Virus record (IMG/VR): IMGVR_UViG_3300033993_001760
Coordinates: 1-23,691 of that record
Length of the DNA stretch: 23,691 nt
From: a virus
Direction: 5' to 3' (one strand)
Below the pieces are notes generated by a model. It saw only the letters and a list, made by a program, of their open reading frames with translations. It was not told where the DNA came from and ran no database searches. The position numbers were made by a program, and so were the translations under genes. Below, piece by piece: positions 9,727 through 23,691 of this stretch. Every line of letters begins with the position of its first letter. The stretch's first letter is position 1.

Positions 9727-9926
9727 TTCGCCCGCCGCTTCTCTGTGACGACCGCTCGCTCGGCCCGCGAGGTGTCCTGGTCGGCTCGGTCGACGGCAAC
9801 CGAACGCTCCTCGCGGGCGGGCTCGGCTGCGCCCTCGGCGATCCAGTTCTTGGCGAGCGGGTCATGCACGTCAGCCACCTGCCCGGCCTTGTACCAACTC
9901 CAGTCTCGAAGCATTCTGATTTTCAT
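9723..9926 (-). CDS. Small neck-cluster protein of unknown function
   Basis: This 67-residue protein starts MKIRMLRDWSWYKAGQVAD and continues through LAKNWIAEGAAEPA into a charged Arg/Glu/Ala tail. A short K-I-R-x-L-R-D...K-A-G-Q-V-x-D...WI-A-x-G-x-A pattern recurs in small proteins encoded next to connectors in many phages. I cannot assign a mechanism. Both ends are 4-base ATGA overlaps, which strongly supports it as a real, coupled gene. Confidence 0.75.
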   Translation of the reverse strand: MKIRMLRDWSWYKAGQVADVHDPLAKNWIAEGAAEPAREERSVAVDRADQDTSRAERAVVTEKRRAK

Positions 9927-10696
9927 TGCGGCGCCCTTTTGATTGATTTCTCTGCGTGATCTTCACTGCCCCAGGCCTCTGGCGGCCGCTTGCCTCCGGC
10001 CTCCCAGAAATGCGTCGGGTACTGATGCATCGCCTTCAACCGCTGGTCGGGCCAAGTGATCACAAGCTCCGCGTGACCGATCGCGACCTGCGGGCACACG
10101 GCAACGGTGTTGCCAGCCTTGCGGAATCGATGCCAGAATTCGATGTCCGGGTCTCGCCTTCCGTCCCCCCAGTCTCCGTCTGGGCCAGGGATGCCGATGA
10201 ACCACGGCTTCTCCATTCGTCGCAGGGCCGCCGTGCGGATGATCGTGAGCCCGAAGTGTGCCGTGTCGACGGGCTGGGCCGGGCTCTCCCACCACTCGGA
10301 CGGCAGGGTCACGGTCACGGGCCCCTTGTCTGTCGCGAGGCCCTCCGGAGTGAACATCAGCGTCTGGTCGTCACGCTTCGTCTGAAGTGGAGCCAGAGCG
10401 TCGACGCCGCTGATCAGCATTGCGCCCATCAGCCGGTTCACGCAGTCGGGCTCGAACACAGAATCGTAATCAATCGTGATCACGAACTGGTTGCCGGCCT
10501 CCTCCTTAGAGAGGTCCGTGAGGAGCCGTGACATGGTCTGGTCCCAGAACGCGCCGGTCCCCTTATGGATTTTGATTCCATGAGGGGCGAGCGCCGAGAA
10601 GACCGTGAAGAAATTGTCCTGGAACCCCAGGCGGGGCACCGAGAAACAGGCGGCTACCTGAACGTCATGCTCGACGTTGCCAACGAGGACTCGCAT
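9923..10696 (-). CDS. GT-A fold glycosyltransferase (GT2-like) in the head module
   Basis: This 257-residue protein carries the landmarks of a nucleotide-sugar glycosyltransferase. A hydrophobic strand ends in the DxD-type motif D76-Y-D78 (VITIDYDSVFEPD). An acidic motif D184-I-E186 is followed by FWHRFRKAG. A strand ending in the metal-site-like H208 (VAIGHAE) comes later. There is no membrane segment. The gene lies between the decoration-like gene and the neck genes. This placement suggests modification of a virion protein, although DNA or host-surface sugar targets are equally possible. Its stop overlaps the next start as ATGA. Codon composition does not look different from its neighbours. 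Confidence 0.78.
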   Translation of the reverse strand: MRVLVGNVEHDVQVAACFSVPRLGFQDNFFTVFSALAPHGIKIHKGTGAFWDQTMSRLLTDLSKEEAGNQFVITIDYDSVFEPDCVNRLMGAMLISGVDALAPLQTKRDDQTLMFTPEGLATDKGPVTVTLPSEWWESPAQPVDTAHFGLTIIRTAALRRMEKPWFIGIPGPDGDWGDGRRDPDIEFWHRFRKAGNTVAVCPQVAIGHAELVITWPDQRLKAMHQYPTHFWEAGGKRPPEAWGSEDHAEKSIKRAPQ

Positions 10697-11237: not shown

Positions 11238-12710
11238 TCAGGAGAGGGCCGTGCGGAGACCGACGAGCGGGCCAGCCTTCGTGTTGTCGCCGCAATCGTG
11301 GGTGACCGCATCGAACCTTGTGGTCGCCACGATCAAGGTCTGGTCGAGTTCCGCGTAGCGGTCGACCGAGGTCTTGATCTGGAGGCCACGACGGGTCGCG
11401 TACATCGTCGAGAGCGACAGGTCGCCCAGGAGGAACTTGACCTTGCCGGCGTCGACGCCGAGGTTCGCGTCCATTGTGTGGACGAAGTTCACTGGATATC
11501 CCAACAGACGCATTTCGGGAGCTTCAGCAAGGTTCGAGGCGTTGTTGCCGCCCGTCAGCTTGCCCTGGTTGGTCAGGCCGAGACGCTGCACGCTGGCGGC
11601 GAACACGGCCGGCGAACAGTACCATGCTGCGCGAGCGCGACTGTAAACCGGAAGCCGAGCGGCCGCGTTCACGAAGTCGTCGATCGTCAGGCTGGTCACG
11701 GCCGTGTTGCCGGTTGCGGCGGTCACGAGGCTACCGTTGTGGTTGCCGTCGGCAACCTTCACCGCAGCACCCACGATCCCGCCGTCTTCGCCCGAGCCCG
11801 TGCCCACGAAGCCCACGCGATCCGTGAGAATCGCGATGGACCGAGCGATTTCAGTCGTCAAATAATCGGCGAGATTGATGACGGTCGCGTCTTGAAGGAG
11901 TTCCGAAGACATGCGGTTCGAGACCGCCACCTTCTTCGCCACAAGCTGCACGCGGTCCCACGAGGCGTCCGAGTCCGGAATGCTCGTGTTCTCGCCAATA
12001 AAATAGGCCTGGAGGCCGCCGACCCGGCGAGGCACCACGAGGGTGTCCGAGTTCATGTTGACGTTGCGAGCGTTCGCGGCGAACACTCCATACTGCTCGA
12101 CCAGCACGACGATTTCGTTGAGGACCTCCTCCGCCACGAACAGGCCGCCGAGCGAATTGACGCCCTCGCCCTGAGCGCGGCTGTCGACCACGCCGTGGTC
12201 CGTACACCACCGAGTGGCGTCGCGGTCGCCGAACAGGGTCGACTTGAAGTACATGCCAGCGCGATAGGCACGCTCTTCGGCGTTGGGACCCTTGAAGCCA
12301 CGGAGACGGCCGGCACCGGGAAGGTTGTGGTAAATCTGCGTCACGGATCGGCCCTCCTTGGCCGGGGTGTTGTTAACTGCGGCCACCGAAGCGGGGGTCG
12401 CCTTGTCCAGGACAGTGCGAAGTTCGAGTTCCTTCGCGGCAACAGACTCATAGAACTTGATGCGGTCGCGAATCTTCTCGGCCCGCTCACAGAGGCAGCG
12501 AATCTTCTTCTCCTTCGACTCCTCCTCCTCGTACTCCTCTTCGGGAGACTCGGACTTGGTCTCATCCTCTTCCATGCCGGCCTTCTCGGTCGTCTTCTCG
12601 GTGTCGACCTCGGTGTCCTCGATGCCACCCTCTTCCTGGAGGGCGCCCATCTCGGCGAGGACGGCGGCGAGTTCGTCGAGCAGTTGCTTGACCTTGGACG
12701 AGGCTTCCAT
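11238..12710 (-). CDS. Major capsid protein, HK97 fold, with acidic delta/scaffold region
   Basis: I choose the ATG at 12710 (490 residues, MEASSKVKQLLDELAAVLAE) because AGGAAG lies about 8 bases upstream. The in-frame ATG at 12758 would add 16 unconvincing residues. Residues 1-105 are a coiled-coil delta domain with a very acidic stretch (residues 26-66) and a second helix at 67-100; this part acts as scaffold in HK97-type capsids. The HK97 core follows, with LGGLFVAEEVLNEIVVLVEQ, VAKKVAVSNRMSSELLQD, LTTEIARSIAILTDRVGFVGTG and, near the C-terminus, LLGDLSLSTMYATRRGLQI. The protease encoded at 14810..17041 is the likely processor, probably cutting around residues 110-122. No cysteine box of the kind found in the upstream genes occurs here. 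Confidence 0.95.
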   Translation of the reverse strand: MEASSKVKQLLDELAAVLAEMGALQEEGGIEDTEVDTEKTTEKAGMEEDETKSESPEEEYEEEESKEKKIRCLCERAEKIRDRIKFYESVAAKELELRTVLDKATPASVAAVNNTPAKEGRSVTQIYHNLPGAGRLRGFKGPNAEERAYRAGMYFKSTLFGDRDATRWCTDHGVVDSRAQGEGVNSLGGLFVAEEVLNEIVVLVEQYGVFAANARNVNMNSDTLVVPRRVGGLQAYFIGENTSIPDSDASWDRVQLVAKKVAVSNRMSSELLQDATVINLADYLTTEIARSIAILTDRVGFVGTGSGEDGGIVGAAVKVADGNHNGSLVTAATGNTAVTSLTIDDFVNAAARLPVYSRARAAWYCSPAVFAASVQRLGLTNQGKLTGGNNASNLAEAPEMRLLGYPVNFVHTMDANLGVDAGKVKFLLGDLSLSTMYATRRGLQIKTSVDRYAELDQTLIVATTRFDAVTHDCGDNTKAGPLVGLRTALS

Positions 12711-13028: not shown

Positions 13029-14810
13029 TTACCTTCTGGAAAACTTACCCTTCACCGTCTGCACGGCATCGTGCGCGAACGAATGCACAGGGGCCGTGAG
13101 ATACGTCGCCACGAGGACGTCCGACGCATGCCCTGCGGCGAGCGTGAATCCATTCCGAACTAGCTTCGAGACATAGGCGGAAGAGCTTTTCTTCACGACC
13201 ACCGAGATCGACTTCGGCGTGGACTTATCAGCGATTTCTTTGACGCGGGAGATTTCCTTCGTTGTCAGTTCGCCCGTGGCTCGCCTGGGGTAGACGGTGA
13301 TCGTTTTCTTGTCGACCTCGACGCTGAAGGTCTTCTTGCCGTCTTTGTCGCGGATCGTGAGGCGTAACGAGTTCCCCTTCGTGTCGGCCGACGACTCCGG
13401 AGCGCCCCCGAGCTTCTGGACAAGGTCACCGACCTGCTTCGTGTCCATCCCGAGCTTCTCGATCGTCTTCTTCACTCGCGTCGGCCGCATCTGGTTGTCG
13501 TAGATGCCCTTCACCGCGCCGGTGGTGGCGCCGATGGCGGCGGCCGGCTTGACCACGGCAGGCCCCCCGGTGAGAAGGCCAGTGATCGCGCCCTTGATCC
13601 CGCCCTTGACGGCGCCGGATGCGGCGGCGGCGACGACTCCGGAGGCGCATGTGTTGCCAGAAGAGAACTTCCCGCCCTCGTCTCGCCCGCAGTCGCGTGC
13701 CTCCGCGAACGCGAGCAGGCTGGCGTAGCGGGCGTCGAGCTTCGCCTTGAGCCTTTGCTTCGACGAAAGGCCGTCCCATGATTTCTTCGTTTGATCCGGA
13801 TCGTTCACGACCTCGATGTCGTACTTTTTCCCGCCGGCGAAGAGCCTCTTGGCAATCGTCTTCGGAAACGCTTCTTTGGCAAAGCCCTTGATTTGCTTCG
13901 CCTCTTTGTCCGAGACCTTGTCGCTCGTGTAGATCGTGGCCCCGTAATAGCCCATGTGGATGAAGTGCGTCTCGTTGTTGTTCCGGTCGCGGATGAAGAT
14001 GTTCACGCCCTCATCGCCGCGAGTGGAGTCGATCTCGACGATGGAGTTGCTGACCTTGCCACCCAGGTCGCGGATCAGCTTCTTGATCTGCTTCTCCGTG
14101 GTCCTCATCTGGTAGAGCTTGCGGGCCACCTTCGTCTGCACCTTGTCAGACTTCGTGCGGACGTTGCGGATTCGCTCGCCCTTGCTGTTGGAGATGCCGC
14201 ACGAGTTGTCGACCCCACCGCCGTCGCCGGTTGCACAGAATGCTCGCATCTCCACGCCGTCGAGGTCGTACTCAAACTCGTCGCTGCGGCTCGACTTGTT
14301 AATGACCCTGCCGATGATCCCCTTCGTGTCGAGCACAACCGGCGAGACGGGCGTCACATCCGAGACCGGGTATCCGTACTTTCCGGCGGGCGTGACGTAG
14401 TGCGGGCTGCCTGGGGCAACGTGATGCTTATCGCGATCCGCGTCGAAGTCCTTCTTCGTCTTATAGAACTTCGGCTCTCCGATCTTCATCGTTCCGACGA
14501 GCGTTGCCTTGCCCTTGCCGGTTCGCACAATGCCAACCGTCTTGCCGACATAAGGGCGAAGCGAATCTGTAGGGCGAGTCTCGATCGTTTTCTTGCCGGC
14601 CAGAATCTGCCCAGTGAAGTCCTGTGTCGAATCGTTGATGTTGATGCCGATCCGACACTTGTTCCCGTCTCCGAACTTCCCGTCCGGAGTACGGCCGCAA
14701 TCCGCCGCTCCAGTGACGGCGCCACCGCCAGCGTTCGTCCCCGCACCCATGGCGCGGGCCTGCGAGAACGCGACCAGGGCTGCGATACGGCAGTCTGTCG
14801 AGAGGCTCAT
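13029..14810 (-). CDS. Multidomain head-region cargo protein with ASCH-like domain
   Basis: This 593-residue protein starts MSLSTDCRIAALVAFSQAR at an ATG overlapping the protease stop as ATGA. Its layout is a helix; a C-x13-C box (C38-C52); an ASCH/PUA-like domain at about 55-170 (ILAGKKTIETRPTDSLRPYVGK, then VGIVRTGKG and a KYGYPVSDV segment); a C-x11-C box (C192-C204); a module at about 229-335; a helix ARYASLLAFAEAR; a second C-x13-C box (C374-C388); a glycine-zipper hydrophobic segment at 389-435; and a second copy of the module at 441-560. The two modules share (L)xxLGG, a strand with IRD, a (T/A)(I)xxY strand and a KE-rich helix. They are probably degenerate GNAT-like folds. ASCH domains bind RNA or modified nucleosides in other proteins. 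I infer a packaged or capsid-associated multidomain protein. Confidence 0.8.
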   Translation of the reverse strand: MSLSTDCRIAALVAFSQARAMGAGTNAGGGAVTGAADCGRTPDGKFGDGNKCRIGININDSTQDFTGQILAGKKTIETRPTDSLRPYVGKTVGIVRTGKGKATLVGTMKIGEPKFYKTKKDFDADRDKHHVAPGSPHYVTPAGKYGYPVSDVTPVSPVVLDTKGIIGRVINKSSRSDEFEYDLDGVEMRAFCATGDGGGVDNSCGISNSKGERIRNVRTKSDKVQTKVARKLYQMRTTEKQIKKLIRDLGGKVSNSIVEIDSTRGDEGVNIFIRDRNNNETHFIHMGYYGATIYTSDKVSDKEAKQIKGFAKEAFPKTIAKRLFAGGKKYDIEVVNDPDQTKKSWDGLSSKQRLKAKLDARYASLLAFAEARDCGRDEGGKFSSGNTCASGVVAAAASGAVKGGIKGAITGLLTGGPAVVKPAAAIGATTGAVKGIYDNQMRPTRVKKTIEKLGMDTKQVGDLVQKLGGAPESSADTKGNSLRLTIRDKDGKKTFSVEVDKKTITVYPRRATGELTTKEISRVKEIADKSTPKSISVVVKKSSSAYVSKLVRNGFTLAAGHASDVLVATYLTAPVHSFAHDAVQTVKGKFSRR

Positions 14811-15736
14811 CAGCGGCGGCCCTTGAGGAACCTCAGCGTGTCGTCGATGACTTGGCGGGGGTCGACGGATCGCTTCTTGATTCGTCCCTTCACCTCTTCC
14901 GAGAGCTTCTTGAATGCCTCGGTCGTGTCGCCGTTCGTAAACGGATACTGCTCCGTCTTGCTGCCGTCCGGGTGCTGGCCCTGGACGTAGCCTTCCTTGT
15001 CTCCAACCTGCTTGGCAGTCCACGGATAATGCTCGCCCTTGCTCCAGGTCTGGACGCCACCGCCGTCGTCGGCCTTGCCTCCGTCCTTGCCTCCACGGGC
15101 AAGCTGACCCTCGCGTGCCTTGTCGAGAAACTCCTGGGCGTCCTTCTCTTTGGACTTGTCCTTGTGGTCGCCCTTGCTCCACTCCTTGTAGTCGCCCTTG
15201 CCGCCGCACGAGTTGTCGAGCCCGCCGCCTGGGCCGGTGGGGCAGAAGCCGCGACGCTCGCGGTAGAAGTCGAGGAATTCGTCGTAACGCTTGGACGACT
15301 TCTTTCCGAAAGACTTGATCATTGTGACGCGAGTTGCGTCGTCGGCTGCGATCGAATGCGTGAAGCCGGCGTCGACAAACGTGTCTTCTTCGAGCCGGTC
15401 CATCGTGTCGAGGGCGACCATGATGTGATCGACCCCGAGATCGCGCCCGGCCTTGATCAGCGTCTTCGCGAGTTGCCCGACGCTTTCAGTTCCCTTGCCG
15501 CCAATTGTGCTCGTGGCGCCTTCGACGAAAGCAACTCGCCCGGAGAGGCGACTTCCTACCTCATCCTTGCCGTACCTCTGAATCGACAGCTTGACGCCGC
15601 CGCCCTCCGCTTCGACGCCGCCGTTTTTGCCTGCCGTGATCGACATGGACTTCCCAAGCGTTCTTGCGAAAGAGTCGATTTTCTTGACAGAAGAACCGAA
15701 CTTCTTGAGAGCTTTCTCGACCTTTGCAACATAGCG
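13131..15736 (-). repeat. Three copies of a divergent GNAT-like module (second type)
   Basis: Homologous modules occupy residues 229-335 and 441-560 of the ASCH-containing protein (13806..14126 and 13131..13490) and residues 436-578 of the protease fusion (15308..15736). Shared landmarks are an L-x-x-x-L-G-(G/K) helix end, a strand pair around xIRDxDxxxTF or LSIQRYG, and a long helix rich in K and E. In the last two copies a strand then leads to a GF element (LVRNGFTLA; FVDAGFTHS). The protease copy has IGGKGTESVGQLAKTLIKAG, which resembles a GNAT cofactor loop and helix. The alignment is by eye and the GNAT assignment is inference. Confidence 0.5.
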
Positions 15737-17041
15737 GTCGACGCTGACGGCGCCTGCGACAAGGCCAGCGAACCCGCCAACAATTGCCCCGGGCACTCCG
15801 GCGATTGCGCCTATCGCCGCGCCGGTGGCCGCGCCTGCAACGGCCGGCAGTGAGTCGGCGTGAATATTGGCGCCGACGTCGTCGGCGGGCTTGTCGCCGC
15901 CTTTGCCCCCACACGAGTTGTCGACGCCGCCGCCTGGGCCGGTCGGGCAGAAGCCGCGACGCTCAGCGATGAACTCCTGGCACTTCCGCATCTCTTCGCC
16001 GATGTCGATCTTCGGCTTCGGCGGCTCGGCCACGGCGGCCGGCGGATCGCTCGCCAGGAACTGCTCGTAGCTCCGCTTCGCGACGGCAACGGAAGAATCC
16101 CTGTACGCCGGGTAGGTCACCGGGCCGCAGTCCAGGAGCGATTTAATTTTTGTGACAAGCCGACGGCTTCTGCCGCCCTCGCGGCTCCACTTCTCGCCGC
16201 CTTCTGCCACGACGAAGCTGAAGCTCGATCCCTTCAGGTCCCCGCGAGCCACCATTTCGGCCAAATCTTTGCGGCTCTCTGGAAGGAGAATTTCGTACTT
16301 GAGGCCGATCTTGTCGACCACGAGCTTCATCGTGTTTGGATAGCGGCCGATGAGGTGATTCGGGTCGTGGTTGAACAGGCCACGAGTCTCCAGGGGGCGA
16401 CCTTCGAGGTCCTTGCCCTTCTCGACGATCTCGAATGCCGACGGCGCAATTTGCTCGACGAAATCCCCCAAGAGCAACGAGTCGGTGCGGAACTTGGCCG
16501 CGTACCCGACAAGGTACGTCTTCCGCTCTCCGGTCTCCGGGTCGGCACGCTCCTCGACGCCGAGTGCGCCCTCGGTGGCGTTCTCCGATCCCGTGGTGGC
16601 AAGATACCGACGTTCGACGTTGTCCATCGCGGTCTCCTTGCCATCGATGCTACGGGCTGGCGTATCCAGACTATAAGAGCGGCCTTCCTTCTCGTCGGCA
16701 GCGTTCATCTGCTCGACGACCTTCTTGGCCCACGAGTAGCCGCTCTGGAATCCGCCCCACAACTTCGCGGCGATGTAGCCGTTCGAGGGCCAGCCCTTAT
16801 CGCCTCGATTGAATCCTTCGCCCTTCTGGTCGACAGTGTGGCGATCGAAGTACGCCTTCATGCGACGCACGGTCGACGGCGACAACTCCGTGCCGTTCGA
16901 CAGGTCTCTCGCACGCGCGATGCCGACGGCGGTGCCGCCTCGGCCGTGCTCGCGACGGAGCTTCAAGCCGTACTCCGCCTCGCGGCGAACGCCGGACGGG
17001 GGCTTGAAGTTGATGTGGCTATACTTCTCGGGCTTTGCCAT
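14810..17041 (-). CDS. HK97-type prohead protease (S78-like) with N-terminal phage domain and box-delimited C-terminal extension
   Basis: I choose the ATG at 17041 (743 residues, MAKPEKYSHINFKPPSG) because AGGAGG lies 6 bases upstream; it overlaps the giant gene by 23 bases. Residues 10-112 are a domain common in phages (GRGGTAVGIARARDLSNG, then TVRRMKAYFDRH and GYIAAKLWGG). Residues about 175-325 are the maturation protease. Candidate catalytic H225 lies in LFNHDPNHLIGR and S273 in LKGSSFSFVV, with the family ending VTYPAYRDSSVAV. Typical proteases of this family are near 200-250 residues, so the rest is extra. It comprises a C-x11-C box (C365-C377), a glycine zipper at 397-433, a GNAT-like module at 436-578, a second box (C600-C612) and a Lys/Gly-rich tail with repeated W(S)KG(E/D)H. 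The protease should cleave the capsid delta region. Whether it cuts its own tail is open. Confidence 0.88.
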   Translation of the reverse strand: MAKPEKYSHINFKPPSGVRREAEYGLKLRREHGRGGTAVGIARARDLSNGTELSPSTVRRMKAYFDRHTVDQKGEGFNRGDKGWPSNGYIAAKLWGGFQSGYSWAKKVVEQMNAADEKEGRSYSLDTPARSIDGKETAMDNVERRYLATTGSENATEGALGVEERADPETGERKTYLVGYAAKFRTDSLLLGDFVEQIAPSAFEIVEKGKDLEGRPLETRGLFNHDPNHLIGRYPNTMKLVVDKIGLKYEILLPESRKDLAEMVARGDLKGSSFSFVVAEGGEKWSREGGRSRRLVTKIKSLLDCGPVTYPAYRDSSVAVAKRSYEQFLASDPPAAVAEPPKPKIDIGEEMRKCQEFIAERRGFCPTGPGGGVDNSCGGKGGDKPADDVGANIHADSLPAVAGAATGAAIGAIAGVPGAIVGGFAGLVAGAVSVDRYVAKVEKALKKFGSSVKKIDSFARTLGKSMSITAGKNGGVEAEGGGVKLSIQRYGKDEVGSRLSGRVAFVEGATSTIGGKGTESVGQLAKTLIKAGRDLGVDHIMVALDTMDRLEEDTFVDAGFTHSIAADDATRVTMIKSFGKKSSKRYDEFLDFYRERRGFCPTGPGGGLDNSCGGKGDYKEWSKGDHKDKSKEKDAQEFLDKAREGQLARGGKDGGKADDGGGVQTWSKGEHYPWTAKQVGDKEGYVQGQHPDGSKTEQYPFTNGDTTEAFKKLSEEVKGRIKKRSVDPRQVIDDTLRFLKGRR

Positions 17042-20000
17042 CCTTGGCCTCCTGGTCTTCTTTGGCCCAGCGATCCCAGTCTTCCTGACTCGGGGCTTTT
17101 CCGCTGAGGCCCTTCTCTCGAATCTCGGCCCACACCTCATCGAGGGCAGGGTCGTTGTCGCAGTCAATGCCGCGACGATAATTTTCCGGTGCCGACATGC
17201 TGCGACGCTCCCTTGTCCTGTCTTGGAATTTTAGCAGCGTCTCCCAGCTTCTGCTTCGAGTACGGGCGTCGAACGTCAGCTTGATCGGGCCGCCGTTCTC
17301 TCTCCACCACTCGTGGCCGCCGGGCATGGCGTAGATGTCGAGAAGGGACTTTGCTTTCGCAAACTGCTCTGGAATGCTGCCCGATCGGAGAGCCCTGGCG
17401 ACGTCGGCGATCGGCGCGTCGTATCCGTACTTCGGCCAGACGTGATAGCCGGTCATCCGAGTGTCCGGGCTTGGGCTATCAAAACGCTCTGCATCCATCA
17501 CAAGACGGACGGCACCCGAGGACACCGACTTCGAGACGGACTCCAGGGCGAGGCCCTTGCCCTGGAAGTCTGGATGAACAAAGAACCCCGCCATATGCAG
17601 GACATTGCCGTCGCGGCCTTTAGAGATGTTTCTCGAAGCCTCGACAGCCTTCACGGCAGTGCCGGACTTCGCGAACTGCTTCTCGTCGTCCTGAAATCCC
17701 TCGCCAGTGGTGACGCCCATCGAGGACCAGTGCATCTCGATGCCATCGCCGAACTGCTGCGGAATGATCTCCAGTCGCGGCCGCGTGATGTTCGCGCGAT
17801 CAGCGGCCTCGGAAACGGGCCCCGAAGCCAAAACCGCCTCTGCGATTGTCATGCCGAGGCCGTCAACGATCCGCTCTCGAATGTCGTCTGGCCTGTGAAT
17901 CTTGATCGAGGCGAGAGACTCGGAGCCCGCAAAGAGTGGCCTGCCAGGGGTCCAAATCTCGGTGCCGCTCGATGTGCCCCATTCGGCCTCATCGCCACCC
18001 CAACGCGACGACGTAACCGACCCGCCGCCGCCTGCTCCATCCGGCGCCATCATCACTCTCGGGCCTGCGCCGCACGAATTGTCGATGCCGCCGCCCTCGC
18101 CCGTGGGGCAGAAGGCCCGCCGCTCGACCCAGACTTCATCAAGCAGTTCGAGCCAGTCTCTCGAAGACTTGCCATAACGCTCGCGAACTTTCGAGAAGAC
18201 CTGCCATCCGGGGCTGTCTTTTGCCTTCGGCGAAAGCGACATATCCATGCCGCCGCCGTGCTGCTCCCACCACCGCTGACCCTCCTTCGTTTCGTAGAGA
18301 GCCTGGACCGTCAGTTTCCCTTCCGACTTCTCTTTCATTGCCCTGGGGGACAGGATGGAATTCGGAATTCTGTCTCCGTAGCTGTTGAACACGCCCTTCA
18401 TCGGGGACCACGTCCGAGTCACGAGCTTCCTCGGAATCTCTCCGTCAAATCCCATGCGAGGCCAGATGCGATAGCCCTTGAACTTTTCATTGCTTGGGCT
18501 TCCTGCGGCCCGCATCGAGACGACGTCGACGCCAATCTCGTCTGCGGCAGTGATGCTCGCCGCGACGGACGTCATCAACTGGCGGGCGATCGTAACGCTG
18601 GAGCTTTGCTGCACCTCGGGCTTCAAGGCAAACAACGCGTAGTTCAGTTCAAGCTCACCAGACTCCCGGCGGATCAAGGAAGTTGTCGCGGTGATCCCAG
18701 CCTCGACTTCTCCGACGTCCTTCCTGGACACGACAGTGACTCCTGGCTCTTGGTCTTCCTGCCGTGGCCCACCCTCCAGGCGGCTCATCGCGTATTCGGT
18801 CCCGCCGGCTGTGGCGATCACATTCGTATCCTGGTCTGGGTTTGCCATTACCCGGAGAGCCTGATCGATCGTCACGCCGACGCTCTCCAGGGCGGCGCTG
18901 AACTCCTCGCCGTCAACGATCGTGAAAGATTTCGCGTCAAAAGTTTCTTTCGTTGGGCTGGCCGCCGCCTTGAGCGAATCGCTGTCCCAATGAATCAACG
19001 CCTCTTGCGTTTTCCAGCCGTTCTTGGAGGGGCGACCCATCGGCATCGGGAGTTCATCGTCGTCAGCGGGCGGCCCCTGCTTTCCGTCGGAGCCGCACGA
19101 GTTATCGATGCCGCCGCCCTCGCCGGTCGGACAGAAGCCACGCTTCTCGCCAGAGCCCTTGCGAAACTCCTCCCACAACTCGTCGAGCTTCTTCAGTTCC
19201 TCTTCAGAGAAGATTTCATCGCCGGCCTCAAAGCTGCGAAGCTCTGCAAGTTTGCCGAGGCGTTGCCTGTAGGCCAGGAACCTCTGCCAGCCGGGAGTGC
19301 TCTCGTCTCCAGGACGGAGAGACATGGGAAGCTCCTGGCCGTGCTTCTCCCAATACTCCTGTCCAGCCTTTGTTTCGTACAGGGCCTGGATCGTCAGCTT
19401 TCCAGCCCGCTTCTCGGCAACGGCCCGTGGAGACAAGTCGGCCTCGCGGAGCTTCGTGAGCATCTTCCTCGGGATCACGCCGTCGAATCCGAACTTCGGC
19501 CAGATGCGATAGCCCTTGAACGACTCGTGCTCCCTGCTCCCGGCAGCGTCGAGGCGAATCTCAGAGACGTCGCTCTTCTCCGCGAGCGTGACGCTCTTGA
19601 GAACCCCGCCGATAACCTCTCTCGCGCACGCGACAGCGGCCTTCTCCTGAGCCTCCTTCGAGGCATGGAAGGCGTGGTACTCCAGGACGAGTTCGCCGTC
19701 TTTCGTCTTTCGGAGAGACGAGTTGCTGTCGAGGCCGTCCTTGATGCCCGCGATGTCCTTCGTGGTCATCACGAAAGCGACGGCCTTGCTCTCTTCTGCG
19801 TAGTTCGCCAATCCCATCGAGTCGTGGGGGTGCTCTGGAGACACGATGACCGTCGTGCCTTCCGAAGGGGCGGCGCACATCGTGATGGCGTCCGACAGGG
19901 ACACGCCAAGTTCGTCGATGGCGGCCTTCATTTCAGTCGGGCTCTCGATCGCCAGGGAGTGGAGCTTGCCCGCGTCTTCGATCGGCGGCCGGCTCTTCAG

Positions 20001-23000
20001 GTCTTCCTGCTCCCACATCTCGACGACCTCGTCAGAGTCGTGCCAGGACGTGTCAAGGGTTTCCGTGCCGCCGCCGGAAGAGGCCGGAGGGCAGTCGTTC
20101 TTGACGCCGCCGCCTTCGCCCGTCGCACAGAAGGCCCGCTTCTCAAGGGTTGAGAAGTCTTCTGCCTCGCCCTCGTAGTCGTCGAGCAGGCCCTCGTCCC
20201 ATATCTCTTCCCACAACTCTTCGAGCTTGGTGGTGTCGTCTGGCGAGAGCCAGCCCTCTCCTTCGCCGACAACAAAGTCGCGGCGGTTTCGCTCGAAGTG
20301 GCGAACGAACTTCCCGAACACCTGCATCTGCGGGCTGTCGGCGCGGGTCAGGTCAAGCTGGACGTCGAGGTCCGTGCCGTTGTCTCGCCACCACCTCGTG
20401 CCTTCGGAAGTCGCGTGCAGGTCGAGAAGCGACCGGCAATGCGAGAGGGTCTCGGGCAGCTTGTTGCGAATATGAAAAGGAATTGGAGCGTCAAACCCCA
20501 TTCGCGGCCAGATCGTGTAGCCCTTGAACATACCGTCGCGGGCCTGCCTTGCGTCGCCGGCAGCGTTCAGGACCACCTTCGACACGCCTTGCTTGATCGA
20601 CGCCTCGACGCTGCTCGTCATAATCCGGAAGAACTCGCGGGCGGCCGCGTGCCGCCTCTGGGGGTCGCGGCTCACCTCCGTCTTCACGTCCATGAGCTTG
20701 TGGTCGACGACAATCTCCGGGTCGTCGGCTGGGCCTGCGTTGTAGACGACCGACTGGCTGAACAGTCCGCCCTTTACACCGGCGACGTCGCGAGTCGTCT
20801 CGACATGCAGGCCGTCGCCGCCTTCGTGGTCGTGGTCCCGTCGCATGAAGACGTAGGTTCCGTCGCTGTCGCCGCCGGCCAAGCGAACAACGTCATCCTC
20901 GACGACGCCCATCGCGTCCAGGCGGCGGTCGATTTCCTCCCGCTTGTCTCCGATGTTGATCTCGGGTCCGGAACCACCAGGAGGAGCGGGGGGCGGCGAG
21001 GGATCGGCGGCAACGCCACCGTCGCTATCGTCTTCTTCCTCGCCGGGTGAGTCTTTCGGCGAGCAGTCGTTCTTGATCCCACCGCCTTCGCCGGTGGGGC
21101 AGAAGGCGCGTGAGCTTGGGGCAGCCCTGCGGGTTCCGTTCGCCATCGCGATAAAAGCATCCGCAAACTCCTGGTCGTCGACATTCGCCAAGGCGGCATC
21201 CCAGAGCATTTGCTCGCGGCCGCCACGGTCGTAGTCGTCGTAAAACTCCTCCTCCACCTCGTAAGACCGACGATCGCTTCGATCCTTCCTTGCTATTGGG
21301 CGACGGTTTTTCTTTTGGTCTTCCGCGATTCGCCTGATCTGATCCGAGTAGAGAGAAAGCTGGCCGACGTTTGTGGCGGTCTTTGCGCCGGCGGCCGCAT
21401 AGGCGTCCTGCTCGTCCTGCCACAGCACGTCCTGGAGATACGCGACGGGCATCCCAGTTCTTGCCGATGCTTCGTTCATCGCCCGGATCATGTTGCCTCG
21501 ACGGGACGCCGCGCCCGGATCGCCCATGAGCGACGTGTCGTTCTCGACGATGTTCTTGGCAATCCTGTTCAGCCTGCCCCCGACGCCAGACTTCTCCTTG
21601 AATCCTCCGGCAGCGAAGTGACGAAGTCGATCGGCAGACCAAACGCGAAGCAGGTCGTCAACGACTCCGTTCTGCGATGTCCTGCGGATAGACTCGTGAA
21701 GGTCCTGCGGGGAGATGCCGTGATAGTGGCCTTCGGTAGCACCCTTAAACGCCCCGATCAACTTCTCGGCATACTTCACAGCCTTCTCTGGCTTCCCTGG
21801 AACGACAAGCTCCCCCGTGATCCGGCCCCAAGTCCTCGTGAACCACACGTCGGCGGTCAGCGGGTCGTGATTTCCTTGGTTGTTTTCGTAGAACGGCCCG
21901 ACCTTTGGCCCAAACGTAGAGAACGCCGGGATGACTTCTCCGGCTCGATAGGCCGCCGCCTTCCAGGCACCCTTGGCGTCGTCAGGAGAGGCGAAGTCTG
22001 AGAAAAAGCTCTCGACGTCGCTGGCGGGAATCATCCTGTGCAGCATCAATTCGCGGGCCGCTTTCAGGCCTGCGGCGACGTCGATGCTCCCGTCCGTTCG
22101 CTTGCCGAGCGTGTCGACGATCCTCTGGAAACGCTGAAGCGACTTGCGGATGCCGGGGCCAGTGACGCCAAGTTTGTCGCTTGTCGTGACACGTCCGTCC
22201 CCCTCAAAAAACTTTCTTAGCAACGAGTCCGTTCTCTGCATGTTGCTAAACGGAGAAGCATTTGGGCTCGTGATCGCCTGCAAGACGCGAAACAGGTGCT
22301 CTGCATCTTCTTGCTCGATGAGCGTTCCGTCTTTTGTCCTGCCGCCGCGAACCTGCGGCACAAGCGAGGAGAACTCATCCAGTTGCTTATCCAGTTCCTC
22401 AGGAGAGTAGAAGAGAGGAACAATGCCCCTGCTGCTCGCCGCTGCTGCTTGGTCCGAAAGCGCGGAGGCAATGTACTCAAGGTCTTCCGGAGGCAGTTCG
22501 CCCCTGCCGGTCGCGGTGTTTATGACTCCGCCGCGAAACTCATCCTGAAGCGACGAAAGGTAGGCGCCGGTATCGATCGTGGAGACCCACTCCCGGCCAG
22601 CAAACGGATACACATGAGCGTCAGGAATCTCAGTCGAAACGATTGACTTACCGTCCTCGCTCCTCGTGGTTGGGGGAGAAGCAGCAACGCGAGCGGTGAC
22701 AAGGCCCGTCGGCTGACCGGGGGTCCAGATTCGAGGCCCCTCGGGCGAAGCCACTTTTTCAGACGATGCAATCGCCTCTACAGCCGAACCCGCGCCGCCG
22801 TCGCTGCTGCTGCACGAGTTATCAACGCCGCCGCCTTCCCCTGTCGCGCAGTACGCTCGCGGTTCTACTGTCCAGACTTTGTCTGGTCGGCCTGCCCTTT
22901 GGCCTTCGCCTCGGCGTATTCCTTGACGGCCTTCTTCCTCGCCGCCTGGATGGCCTCTGCGATCTGCTTCGAGGTCGCCCCGGGAGGAAAGTCGAACCTC

Positions 23001-23691
23001 ACCATCTTCTTTGGCTGCTCGCTCATTCTTGATCCTGATCTCTTTCTTGTTCGCGATATCCCAAATCGCAAGCTGCTTGTGCTTGACCGCCGCCTGCTCG
23101 GCCTCTTCCTGTGTCTCGAACCTTTCCGAGAGATCGAGATAGACCTTGTCGCTCTCCGAGTCGATCCAGCCCCCTAAGTGTAGCTTCGGGCGAGAAGAAA
23201 GATAGTCCCTGTGAGTCTCGAAATACTGGTCGATGACCTCTTCAGTGACGTCGTTCTTGCTGTCAATAATCTTCTCCGCTCCTGGGACGGTTGCGCACAT
23301 ATAGCCCGTTGTCGGGCTCTCGGCCGTCACCGGATGGACAGAAAATCCGCCCGTTGCCTCGATGCTCCTGAGGATTTCGTCGAGCACGTCCCGCGTGGAT
23401 GCACGCTCAGGTTCAGAATCTTTTGAATTCTGAGACTTGCCGGACTCAGCATCGGCAGAGCCGTCTCCCTCCTTCTGACAATCGTTGCCAGGGCCGAACT
23501 TCCCACCGTCCACCCGCCCGCAGTCGTCGGAACGCTGCTCCTTGCCGGCGGCCTTCGTCACCTTGGCGGCGAACTTCCTGGCCTTCTCGGCCATCTTGTT
23601 GACGCGGTCGGCGTCCTCGGCCCACCACTCGGCGAAACCGTCGCCGACGCCCACGGCCTTCTTGATCTCTTCGATCAGTTCCGTCGCCCGC
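17019..23691 (-). CDS. Giant modular box-delimited head-region polyprotein, 5'-partial
   Basis: The frame is open from the right edge to a TAG at 17019..17021. Residue numbers here count from the GTG at 23654; codons continue upstream, so the true start is outside. The layout is: a B box (C45-C59); a domain at about 85-207 ending LHLGGWIDSESDKVYLDLS and QLAIWDIANKKEI; a doubtful stretch at 210-263; A box 1; a helical domain at about 308-775 with FGPKVGPFYENNQGN, LTADVWFTRTWG and VAYLQDVLWQDEQDAY, reminiscent of a domain in other large phage proteins; then four GNAT-like modules separated by A boxes 2-5. The position upstream of the protease is where MuF-type or portal-extension proteins are encoded. 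It may be a C-terminal extension of the portal. I infer capsid-associated or ejected cargo. No enzymatic activity is proven. Confidence 0.8.
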   Translation of the reverse strand, partial: RATELIEEIKKAVGVGDGFAEWWAEDADRVNKMAEKARKFAAKVTKAAGKEQRSDDCGRVDGGKFGPGNDCQKEGDGSADAESGKSQNSKDSEPERASTRDVLDEILRSIEATGGFSVHPVTAESPTTGYMCATVPGAEKIIDSKNDVTEEVIDQYFETHRDYLSSRPKLHLGGWIDSESDKVYLDLSERFETQEEAEQAAVKHKQLAIWDIANKKEIRIKNERAAKEDGEVRLSSRGDLEADRRGHPGGEEEGRQGIRRGEGQRAGRPDKVWTVEPRAYCATGEGGGVDNSCSSSDGGAGSAVEAIASSEKVASPEGPRIWTPGQPTGLVTARVAASPPTTRSEDGKSIVSTEIPDAHVYPFAGREWVSTIDTGAYLSSLQDEFRGGVINTATGRGELPPEDLEYIASALSDQAAAASSRGIVPLFYSPEELDKQLDEFSSLVPQVRGGRTKDGTLIEQEDAEHLFRVLQAITSPNASPFSNMQRTDSLLRKFFEGDGRVTTSDKLGVTGPGIRKSLQRFQRIVDTLGKRTDGSIDVAAGLKAARELMLHRMIPASDVESFFSDFASPDDAKGAWKAAAYRAGEVIPAFSTFGPKVGPFYENNQGNHDPLTADVWFTRTWGRITGELVVPGKPEKAVKYAEKLIGAFKGATEGHYHGISPQDLHESIRRTSQNGVVDDLLRVWSADRLRHFAAGGFKEKSGVGGRLNRIAKNIVENDTSLMGDPGAASRRGNMIRAMNEASARTGMPVAYLQDVLWQDEQDAYAAAGAKTATNVGQLSLYSDQIRRIAEDQKKNRRPIARKDRSDRRSYEVEEEFYDDYDRGGREQMLWDAALANVDDQEFADAFIAMANGTRRAAPSSRAFCPTGEGGGIKNDCSPKDSPGEEEDDSDGGVAADPSPPPAPPGGSGPEINIGDKREEIDRRLDAMGVVEDDVVRLAGGDSDGTYVFMRRDHDHEGGDGLHVETTRDVAGVKGGLFSQSVVYNAGPADDPEIVVDHKLMDVKTEVSRDPQRRHAAAREFFRIMTSSVEASIKQGVSKVVLNAAGDARQARDGMFKGYTIWPRMGFDAPIPFHIRNKLPETLSHCRSLLDLHATSEGTRWWRDNGTDLDVQLDLTRADSPQMQVFGKFVRHFERNRRDFVVGEGEGWLSPDDTTKLEELWEEIWDEGLLDDYEGEAEDFSTLEKRAFCATGEGGGVKNDCPPASSGGGTETLDTSWHDSDEVVEMWEQEDLKSRPPIEDAGKLHSLAIESPTEMKAAIDELGVSLSDAITMCAAPSEGTTVIVSPEHPHDSMGLANYAEESKAVAFVMTTKDIAGIKDGLDSNSSLRKTKDGELVLEYHAFHASKEAQEKAAVACAREVIGGVLKSVTLAEKSDVSEIRLDAAGSREHESFKGYRIWPKFGFDGVIPRKMLTKLREADLSPRAVAEKRAGKLTIQALYETKAGQEYWEKHGQELPMSLRPGDESTPGWQRFLAYRQRLGKLAELRSFEAGDEIFSEEELKKLDELWEEFRKGSGEKRGFCPTGEGGGIDNSCGSDGKQGPPADDDELPMPMGRPSKNGWKTQEALIHWDSDSLKAAASPTKETFDAKSFTIVDGEEFSAALESVGVTIDQALRVMANPDQDTNVIATAGGTEYAMSRLEGGPRQEDQEPGVTVVSRKDVGEVEAGITATTSLIRRESGELELNYALFALKPEVQQSSSVTIARQLMTSVAASITAADEIGVDVVSMRAAGSPSNEKFKGYRIWPRMGFDGEIPRKLVTRTWSPMKGVFNSYGDRIPNSILSPRAMKEKSEGKLTVQALYETKEGQRWWEQHGGGMDMSLSPKAKDSPGWQVFSKVRERYGKSSRDWLELLDEVWVERRAFCPTGEGGGIDNSCGAGPRVMMAPDGAGGGGSVTSSRWGGDEAEWGTSSGTEIWTPGRPLFAGSESLASIKIHRPDDIRERIVDGLGMTIAEAVLASGPVSEAADRANITRPRLEIIPQQFGDGIEMHWSSMGVTTGEGFQDDEKQFAKSGTAVKAVEASRNISKGRDGNVLHMAGFFVHPDFQGKGLALESVSKSVSSGAVRLVMDAERFDSPSPDTRMTGYHVWPKYGYDAPIADVARALRSGSIPEQFAKAKSLLDIYAMPGGHEWWRENGGPIKLTFDARTRSRSWETLLKFQDRTRERRSMSAPENYRRGIDCDNDPALDEVWAEIREKGLSGKAPSQEDWDRWAKEDQEAKDGKAREV
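17109..20966 (-). repeat. Four tandem GNAT-like modules with WW-helix appendage
   Basis: The modules lie at 20184..20966, 19155..19982, 18120..18932 and 17109..17942 (giant residues about 897-1157, 1225-1500, 1575-1845 and 1905-2182). Each has an N-terminal helix (LGVxxxxAxxx), a core with a strand-helix-strand, and the sequence G-Y-x-(I/V)-W-P-(R/K)-x-G-(F/Y)-D. A C-terminal appendage follows with G-x-x-(W/Y)-W-x-x-(N/H)-G and a closing L-(D/E)-E-(L/V)-W. The cofactor-loop position reads Q-G-K-G-L-A (Q2031-A2036) in module 4. It is degenerate in module 1 (QRRHAA), module 2 (QEKAAV) and module 3 (QQSSSV). The GNAT fold is inferred from this pattern. Confidence 0.7.
22865..23026 (-). CDS. Possible 53-residue protein overlapping the giant frame
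   Basis: This ORF starts MSEQPKKMVRFDFPPGATS at an ATG with AGGA about 6 bases upstream and ends KSGQ-TAG. The predicted protein is a Lys/Ala-rich helix after a short strand, with no recognised family. By hand count, 44 of its 53 codons end in G or C, against 23 of the same 53 codons read in the giant frame. The giant frame translation here is Gly/Arg/Glu-rich, like off-frame sequence. The coding signal therefore favours this small gene. The giant frame nevertheless has no stop here and no ATG, GTG or TTG between 23026 and the following A box, so both readings are listed. Confidence 0.55.
   Translation of the reverse strand: MSEQPKKMVRFDFPPGATSKQIAEAIQAARKKAVKEYAEAKAKGQADQTKSGQ

Follow-up and report, generated by a model that had tools for sequence, protein, structure and literature searches.

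Cysteine-bounded boxes between the modules of portal, prohead protease and neighbouring proteins in phage head-gene clusters

The window, by which we mean the whole stretch of DNA analysed here, is an IMG/VR virus record of 23,691 bases that is possibly a fragment. On its - strand, three adjacent ORFs (a giant ORF, a protease fusion and an ORF with a weak ASCH-like module, the ASCH ORF) are followed by the gene for the major capsid protein, after which come smaller genes and a tape-measure-like protein (Table 1). The ATG of the ASCH ORF at 14810 overlaps the stop codon of the protease fusion, which suggests coupled translation. Between the capsid and tail genes, the ORF at 9923-10696 (-) has a weak glycosyltransferase-2-like match that lies below the cut-off (Glyco_trans_2_3, E 0.0016).

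Table 1. Coordinates of the genes, boxes and candidate protease sites in the window
Feature	Position	Strand	Remarks
Giant ORF	17019..23690	-	Open at window edge; leader, six boxes, modules
Protease fusion	14810..17041	-	N-terminal domain, Peptidase_S78 prohead protease, box, GNAT-like module, box, small domain, C-terminal helix
ASCH ORF	13029..14810	-	Leader, box, weak ASCH-like module, box, module, box, module
Major capsid protein (Phage_capsid)	11238..12710	-	Pfam 1.1e-33; without box; N-terminal scaffold-like region ending in KEGRSV linker
C-x13-C box 1 CGRVDGGKFGPGNDC	23478..23522	-	Giant ORF, after leader of at least 56 aa
C-x11-C box CATGEGGGVDNSC	22812..22850	-	Giant ORF
C-x11-C box CPTGEGGGIKNDC	21063..21101	-	Giant ORF
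C-x11-C box CATGEGGGVKNDC	20091..20129	-	Giant ORF; residues 46-58 of modelled stretch, pLDDT <50
C-x11-C box CPTGEGGGIDNSC	19095..19133	-	Giant ORF; model residues 378-390, pLDDT <50; predicted helix 354-369 upstream
C-x11-C box CPTGEGGGIDNSC	18072..18110	-	Giant ORF; model residues 719-731, pLDDT <50; predicted helix 701-712 upstream
C-x11-C box CPTGPGGGVDNSC	15911..15949	-	Protease fusion, behind S78 protease domain; model residues 365-377, pLDDT <50
C-x11-C box CPTGPGGGLDNSC	15206..15244	-	Protease fusion; model residues 600-612, pLDDT <50
C-x13-C box CGRTPDGKFGDGNKC	14655..14699	-	ASCH ORF, 37 residues past likely ATG; a single residue away from the strict regular expression, plainly the same box
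C-x11-C box CATGDGGGVDNSC	14199..14237	-	ASCH ORF
C-x13-C box CGRDEGGKFSSGNTC	13647..13691	-	ASCH ORF; ARYASLLAF (recurrent pre-box motif) in front
KEGRSY	16673..16690	-	Low-confidence linker (low pLDDT 118-139) between N-terminal and protease domains; candidate self-cleavage site
KEGRSV	12342..12359	-	Scaffold/mature junction of capsid protein; candidate protease site, resembles E-x-R before boxes

The protease fusion carries an HK97-family (S78) prohead protease, as both the S78 domain (Pfam Peptidase_S78, 2.7e-29, over the cut-off) and the prohead-protease fold (match to T4 gp21, 5jbl, E 2.2e-4) are present; its match to TIGR01543 (9e-16, 58.3 bits) is just under the cut-off of 59. The module after the protease domain has a GNAT-like fold (4nxy, E 6e-4), the modules of the giant ORF give weaker matches to acetyltransferase folds, none of them below E 0.001, and the ASCH match of the ASCH ORF (Pfam, E 0.087) is below the cut-off. 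The original prediction had the domains that flank the boxes differing completely, which proved incorrect, for modules 3-6 of the giant ORF are mutual paralogues (E 6e-59 to 1e-5), and in the ASCH ORF the final two modules are likewise related (2e-5). A near-identical relative (L082) has a copy of the giant ORF, 99.8% identical over 442 aa, directly downstream of an HK97-type portal gene that itself bears boxes. Other phages have a homologue of the start of the giant ORF inside a single frame of about 2400 aa, and in one record (G006) a frame of that length holds the portal.

A six-frame scan of the window found the strict pattern C-x-T-G-x-G-G-G-x2-N-x-C in eight copies, five of them in the giant ORF, two in the protease fusion and one in the ASCH ORF, as well as three copies of a C-x13-C box, one in the giant ORF and two in the ASCH ORF. 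All 11 boxes lie on the - strand and none occurs elsewhere in the window, exactly as had been predicted. Joined, the three frames amount to 3847 aa with 35 cysteines, and the 11 pairs of cysteines spaced as C-x11-C or C-x13-C are exactly the boxes; composition shuffles of the joined frames contained a mean of 0.62 such pairs, and a strict box in 0 of 2000.

Among IMG/VR contigs, at least 120 stretches matched the strict C-x11-C pattern at the DNA level and 50 matched the C-x13-C pattern, many of the latter in loci also matched by C-x11-C. The original prediction had named residence mostly in cellular proteins as evidence against a link to phage heads. What we found in genome_contigs, which covers 84,980 bacterial and archaeal species, were two matches to the C-x11-C pattern, one in a frame of 32 aa and one without an open frame for the motif, so that no genuine C-x11-C box was found in these species. 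The 22-aa box used as a tblastn query had no match in 50,697 GenBank phage records, where the BLAST low-complexity filter may hide such queries, and neither a 773-aa stretch of the giant ORF nor a composite query had a tblastn match in GenBank phages. The protease fusion aligned with GenBank phages only through its residues 5-329 in the best 12 of 396 records. A search of the PDB by sequence gave no match.

We compared boxes across 148 loci from viral contigs, two from genomes and the window, which together hold 269 strict C-x11-C and 77 strict C-x13-C boxes. The spacing of the cysteines, predicted to be invariant within each family, is so in the window; the relatives also have looser forms, C-x12-C (six) and C-x16-C (two). 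The C-x12-C hybrids, such as CGTGGGGFQKGNTC, combine features of both families, which makes C-x11-C and C-x13-C look like one superfamily and bears out the proposal that they are variants of one box. It is the protein sequence that is under selection, as 31 identical CPTGEGGGIDNSC boxes are encoded by 29 different DNA sequences; the codon entropy of the boxes is near that of the rest of their genes, a clear drop being confined to some of the Gly and Ser positions. (Two other readings of the motif were dropped: it leaves too little space for an intein, and the residue ahead of the first cysteine is mostly F, D or Y, which does not fit a lipobox.) Motifs that lack the cysteines were seen in two places. 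One IMG/VR record (L020, 26,088 bases) has cysteine boxes and also, in a frame of 1272 aa, a Cys-less NPNQPRDEAGRF, perhaps an ancestral form of the box, and the annotated head maturation protease of Mycobacterium phage Predator (L159, 4010-4771) starts with a Cys-less NPRQPRDRLGRW that resembles the C-x13-C core. With E-values of 0.7 and more, the apparent likeness of C-x13-C to these two motifs is only a lead.

Two AlphaFold2 models, one for the protease fusion (mean pLDDT 64, pTM 0.32) and one for a stretch of the giant ORF with three boxes (mean pLDDT 71, pTM 0.43), served to place the boxes relative to folded domains. All five modelled boxes lie in linkers with pLDDT below 50 between folded domains and none within a folded domain, the other location that had been named as counting against the prediction. 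A predicted helix ends 4-23 residues ahead of each modelled box, and these helices, too, are mostly of low confidence; the amphipathic moment of the pre-box helix, in what is a weak test, is barely above background (0.268 versus 0.252, p 0.027). Consistent with the predicted position at domain boundaries, homology ended within 20 aa of a box in 23% of cases as against 11% for random points (boxes masked), and the ends near boxes exceeded random in 113 of 138 proteins. When random places were masked as a control, homology ended there in 5.8% as against 11.5%; masking thus creates no such ends and is not the cause of those near boxes. Modules of one and the same family are found first, in the middle and last in chains.

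The predicted link to head genes was borne out in 35 records longer than 20 kb, in which boxes were located by pattern and head genes by Pfam (portal in 23, S78 protease in 28 and capsid in 29 of the 35) and in which a reversed control pattern had no match. Portal and capsid were both present in 22 records, and there 129 of 130 boxes fall in the interval from the end of the portal domain to the start of the capsid domain, where 43.6 would be expected at random. In records with a head gene, 166 of 166 boxes are on the strand of the head genes; the two counts are not fully independent, since some records are near copies. Five of the 35 records (G007, G011, G014, G018 and G019) have boxes and none of the three head families recognised by Pfam, and in one locus of G014 (L065) the box-bearing protein is a capsid/protease fusion that belongs to another family. 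Across 16 fetched portal-to-capsid intervals, 52 of 67 ORFs of at least 150 aa bear a box, with up to 9 boxes per ORF; by hand count, these are 44 of 45 ORFs in the ten largest intervals and 8 of 22 in the other six, and the ORF table is approximate, because the greedy choice of ORFs replaced the capsid gene in several records, and the portal in G021, by frames on the opposite strand. Portal and protease are components of the procapsid, and the cargo whose genes lie between portal and capsid is assigned to it from context.

A Pfam scan covered 131 (88 plus 43) of 150 non-redundant box-bearing frames, the remaining 19 being the longest, the giant ORF of the window among them. At E 0.001 or better, these 131 included Peptidase_S78 (26), Phage_portal (22), AAA_33 (9), ART-PolyVal (5), ADPrib_exo_Tox (4) and MuF (2), four matches to other portal families, and single cases of a zeta toxin, Ntox46, a GNAT domain and pentapeptide repeats; a metallopeptidase-like match was below its cut-off, and many carriers had no Pfam match. 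The box is therefore common to head proteins and to enzyme-like proteins with domains of the polyvalent and polymorphic-toxin kinds. In one locus (L030, 2038-5889, -), a lambda-type portal, a box and ART-PolyVal share a single frame, which places a box outside the HK97-portal group.

The flanks of the boxes are themselves patterned. Upstream, E stands at position -5 in 142 and R at -3 in 181 of 284 boxes, A or G at -2 in 221 and F, Y or D at -1 in 257. Ahead of 200 of 319 boxes, the motif E-x-R-[AGSD] begins at one of the positions -6 to -4 (background 0.0022 per residue). In one frame (L022, 7442-9715, -), whose N-terminus is phrog_29592-like, LLEVR directly precedes each of three boxes, so that E-x-R abuts the first cysteine. 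The capsid protein of the window has a similar sequence, KEGRSV, at the junction of its scaffold and mature parts, and the KEGRS common to this linker and to the linker ahead of the protease domain suggests a common protease site. Among 23 distinct capsid linkers, a count that leaves out eight capsid sequences without an ERAY anchor, KE[GSAT]RSV occupies the junction in 14, the linkers being otherwise variable; the other nine have E-x-R-x-[YFI] (five), Q-K-R (one) or KET[PSL]V, which lacks the Arg (three). Of 88 ORFs with a plausible start, 42 have their first box no more than 80 aa into the frame (after 11-72 aa), the others having a longer stretch ahead of it; counted from the upstream stop, the limit of 80 aa holds in 48 of 116 cases. 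Another recurrent pre-box motif is R[YH]A-x-L-x-x-F: in 30 of its 31 distinct occurrences a box comes next, no more than 25 aa away, and the remaining one is truncated where its locus ends. The motif lies within 130 residues of the frame start in 17 of the 31 and further in in 14.

These observations raise the possibility that the boxes are joints at which the prohead protease cuts capsid-internal cargo chains, the box staying on the freed module as an N-terminal cysteine tag. We tentatively favour this reading, to which we assign a little less than an even chance, and we infer both the cleavage and the cysteine chemistry. The strongest clue appears to be the E-x-R found both before boxes and in the linker between the scaffold and mature parts of the capsid protein. 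Also in favour are the position of the boxes in linkers, near ends of homology and between portal and capsid genes, the regular succession of R[YH]A-x-L-x-x-F and box, the cleavage of the capsid protein after Arg in phage phi12, which has an HK97-like protease (after R128; in Ccm, a relative of that capsid protein, cleavage follows Lys; PMC8569155), and the first box near the start of many ORFs, which recalls the propeptides of T4 and SPN3US. (Note that, according to the phi12 authors, the two cut sites share little beyond a basic P1 and another protease is possible for the second; PMC8569155.) The S78 protease of the window, by fold a relative of T4 gp21, itself carries boxes, and a single element at each modelled junction, placed in the linker, has the appearance of a processing site. 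Against a protease joint, cleavage alone leaves the two conserved cysteines unexplained, boxes occur in the five records named above without a recognised S78 protease, 119 of 319 boxes have no E-x-R-[AGSD] at -6 to -4, and the predicted pre-box helices are mostly of low confidence. Moreover, E-x-R is not unique to the capsid junction, since it is also present in the coiled coil just upstream (ELRAV, ELRTV). Of the four functions originally proposed, the proteolytic joint is the best supported and a recombination seam is disfavoured; a loading signal and a disulfide or metal clasp are each compatible with the joint.

In the favoured reading of a protease joint, portal, prohead protease and the cargo proteins encoded nearby are strings of folded modules, each separated from the next by a short, probably helical stretch, then E-x-R-[AG]-[FYD], and then a Gly-rich loop with the two conserved cysteines. 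The data above show this element, its confinement to the interval from portal to capsid, its location in linkers and the selection on its protein sequence. The stretch before the box, which is also the short leader of stand-alone cargo ORFs, may bring the chain into the procapsid. During head maturation, the S78 protease would cleave the chain behind the Arg of E-x-R, much as it probably does with the capsid protein at KEGR/SV, and the freed module would keep [AG]-[FYD]-C-box at its new N-terminus. The cysteine pair could then close the loop, by a disulfide or a metal, to act as a handle, and the freed enzymes may be ejected along with the DNA.

An alternative that we regard as rather unlikely is that the box is a loading tag that involves no cleavage, in which the leader or pre-box stretch together with the box binds a common partner in the procapsid (the scaffold part of the capsid protein, the portal or the protease) and brings its bearer inside, the chains remaining whole. 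Such a tag would suit the position of the boxes between portal and capsid genes, the short leader and box with which many cargo ORFs open (42 of 88 with a plausible start), and the presence of the pair of R[YH]A-x-L-x-x-F and box both near frame starts and internally. However, portal and protease are already head proteins and would not need many tags, the repetition of boxes along a chain exceeds what loading requires, and the E-x-R common to boxes and capsid linker is left unexplained.

Less probable still, in our estimate, is a clasp as the main function, in which a disulfide or metal bound by the cysteines, within a box or between the boxes of different proteins, holds the cargo in the virion until it meets the reducing cytoplasm or loses the metal. 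In its favour, when box cores were sought without requiring cysteine, both cysteines were kept in 264 of 264 C-x11-C cores and in 136 of 137 C-x13-C cores, the sole exception being an apparently unrelated frame of 154 aa, while other cysteines number 6.3 per 1000 residues in box proteins; because the loci were gathered with cysteine-containing patterns, this conservation speaks for further boxes in the same loci and not for all phages. A zinc knuckle or ribbon consists of two close pairs of Cys/His ligands. We rejected this identity, as each box has two cysteines separated by 11 or 13 residues (rarely by 12 or 16) and no second ligand pair, which also speaks against the clasp, as do the conserved TG-GGG, the N before the second cysteine and the E-x-R, none of which it explains, and the models, which assign no confident fold to the box.

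That the box is a passive flexible hinge, a Gly-rich spacer without a partner, we consider very improbable: downstream flanks are rich in Gly and Ser and the linkers between domains are of low confidence, as a hinge would have it, but a near-fixed pattern of 13 or 15 residues with conserved cysteines across 150 non-redundant proteins is not expected of one. Hardly credible at all is a recombination seam, with the DNA of the box conserved for module shuffling, which would account for same-family modules in first, middle and last place and for the homology ends near boxes but is disfavoured by the number of DNA sequences that encode one box and by codon entropy near the gene average.

A further, frankly speculative reading, which we think improbable, would make the box a standard plug, with a cysteine loop behind a protease site turning any enzyme into a module of the head interior. 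Portal and protease polyproteins would then supply these phages with an exchangeable set of enzymes to be loaded, cut free and injected, and a loop closed in the virion as a disulfide (or with a metal) and opening in the host cytoplasm would amount to redox-gated delivery. Virion-packaged phage effectors are known but hard to spot from sequence, and the box offers a strict, searchable marker for candidates. It also opens to direct test the questions of how so many kinds of enzyme get into one head and at which sites HK97-type prohead proteases cleave cargo. Should the box prove to be a loading element, it might double as a handle for placing foreign proteins in phage heads.

The box carriers resemble several known systems in part. 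Polyvalent proteins are large multidomain phage proteins, with 2-15 domains per polypeptide, that have ART, metallopeptidase and other effector domains, some of them fused to portal or MuF, and that are predicted to be packaged and injected (Iyer et al. 2017, PMC5512222). Like them, the giant ORF is a multidomain chain, with seven segments split by six boxes and several folded domains modelled, and the frequency of portal, S78 protease and capsid in the 35 box-bearing records recalls their portal-terminase phage context. Of the effector domains, ART-PolyVal was seen in 5 of the 131 box proteins scanned, and the window modules have no polyvalent Pfam family over the cut-off. The text on polyvalent proteins, as available in part (PMC5512222), contains neither 'cysteine' nor 'linker' and describes no cysteine box. 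The MuF polymorphic toxins of temperate phages are head-associated, encoded beside the portal and equipped with variable effector domains (Jamet et al. 2017, PMC5576092). Two of the 131 scanned box proteins share MuF with them; the head domains recognised in box carriers are far more often S78 protease or portal than MuF, and Pfam found no MuF domain in the window proteins. The words 'motif' and 'cysteine' are absent from the available part of that text (PMC5576092).

In phages of the SPN3US/phiKZ type, ejection proteins and the portal carry long propeptides that the prohead protease removes by cutting after Glu, and the passages concerned describe no cysteine box in them (PMC5694885). T4 gp21 removes capsid-targeting propeptides (PMC9026906). 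The capsid-targeting sequence (CTS) of T4 is N-terminal, 10-20 residues long and cut after Glu, with Alt and gp21 also losing C-terminal pieces, and the passages on it mention no cysteine box (PMC9026906, PMC5694885). The leader and box with which some ORFs open may correspond to the T4 CTS, a short N-terminal element on proteins bound for the head, and the window protease is gp21-like by fold; unlike the CTS, the element described here occurs internally and in repeats as well. Eleven stretches were picked by hand for comparison with the T4 CTS: the eight leaders had no sequence similarity to it (P 0.39-0.95 against shuffles) and the three protease pre-box stretches scored above shuffles (P 0 to 0.007, 1000 shuffles); judged by sequence similarity, the stretches before the boxes do not appear to belong with the T4 CTS. 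The sequence QEFIAE at 15962-15979 (-), in a protease pre-box stretch, equals residues 5-10 of T4 ipII/ipIII, a coincidence noticed after the fact and possibly due to chance. The exact box strings that we tried occurred in none of the papers searched, a set without most subscription papers and preprints. None of the passages available on these systems describes a cysteine box that is common to portal, protease and cargo chains and partitions them, and packaged multi-domain effectors, MuF toxins and cleavable capsid-targeting sequences are the known kinds beside which it stands.
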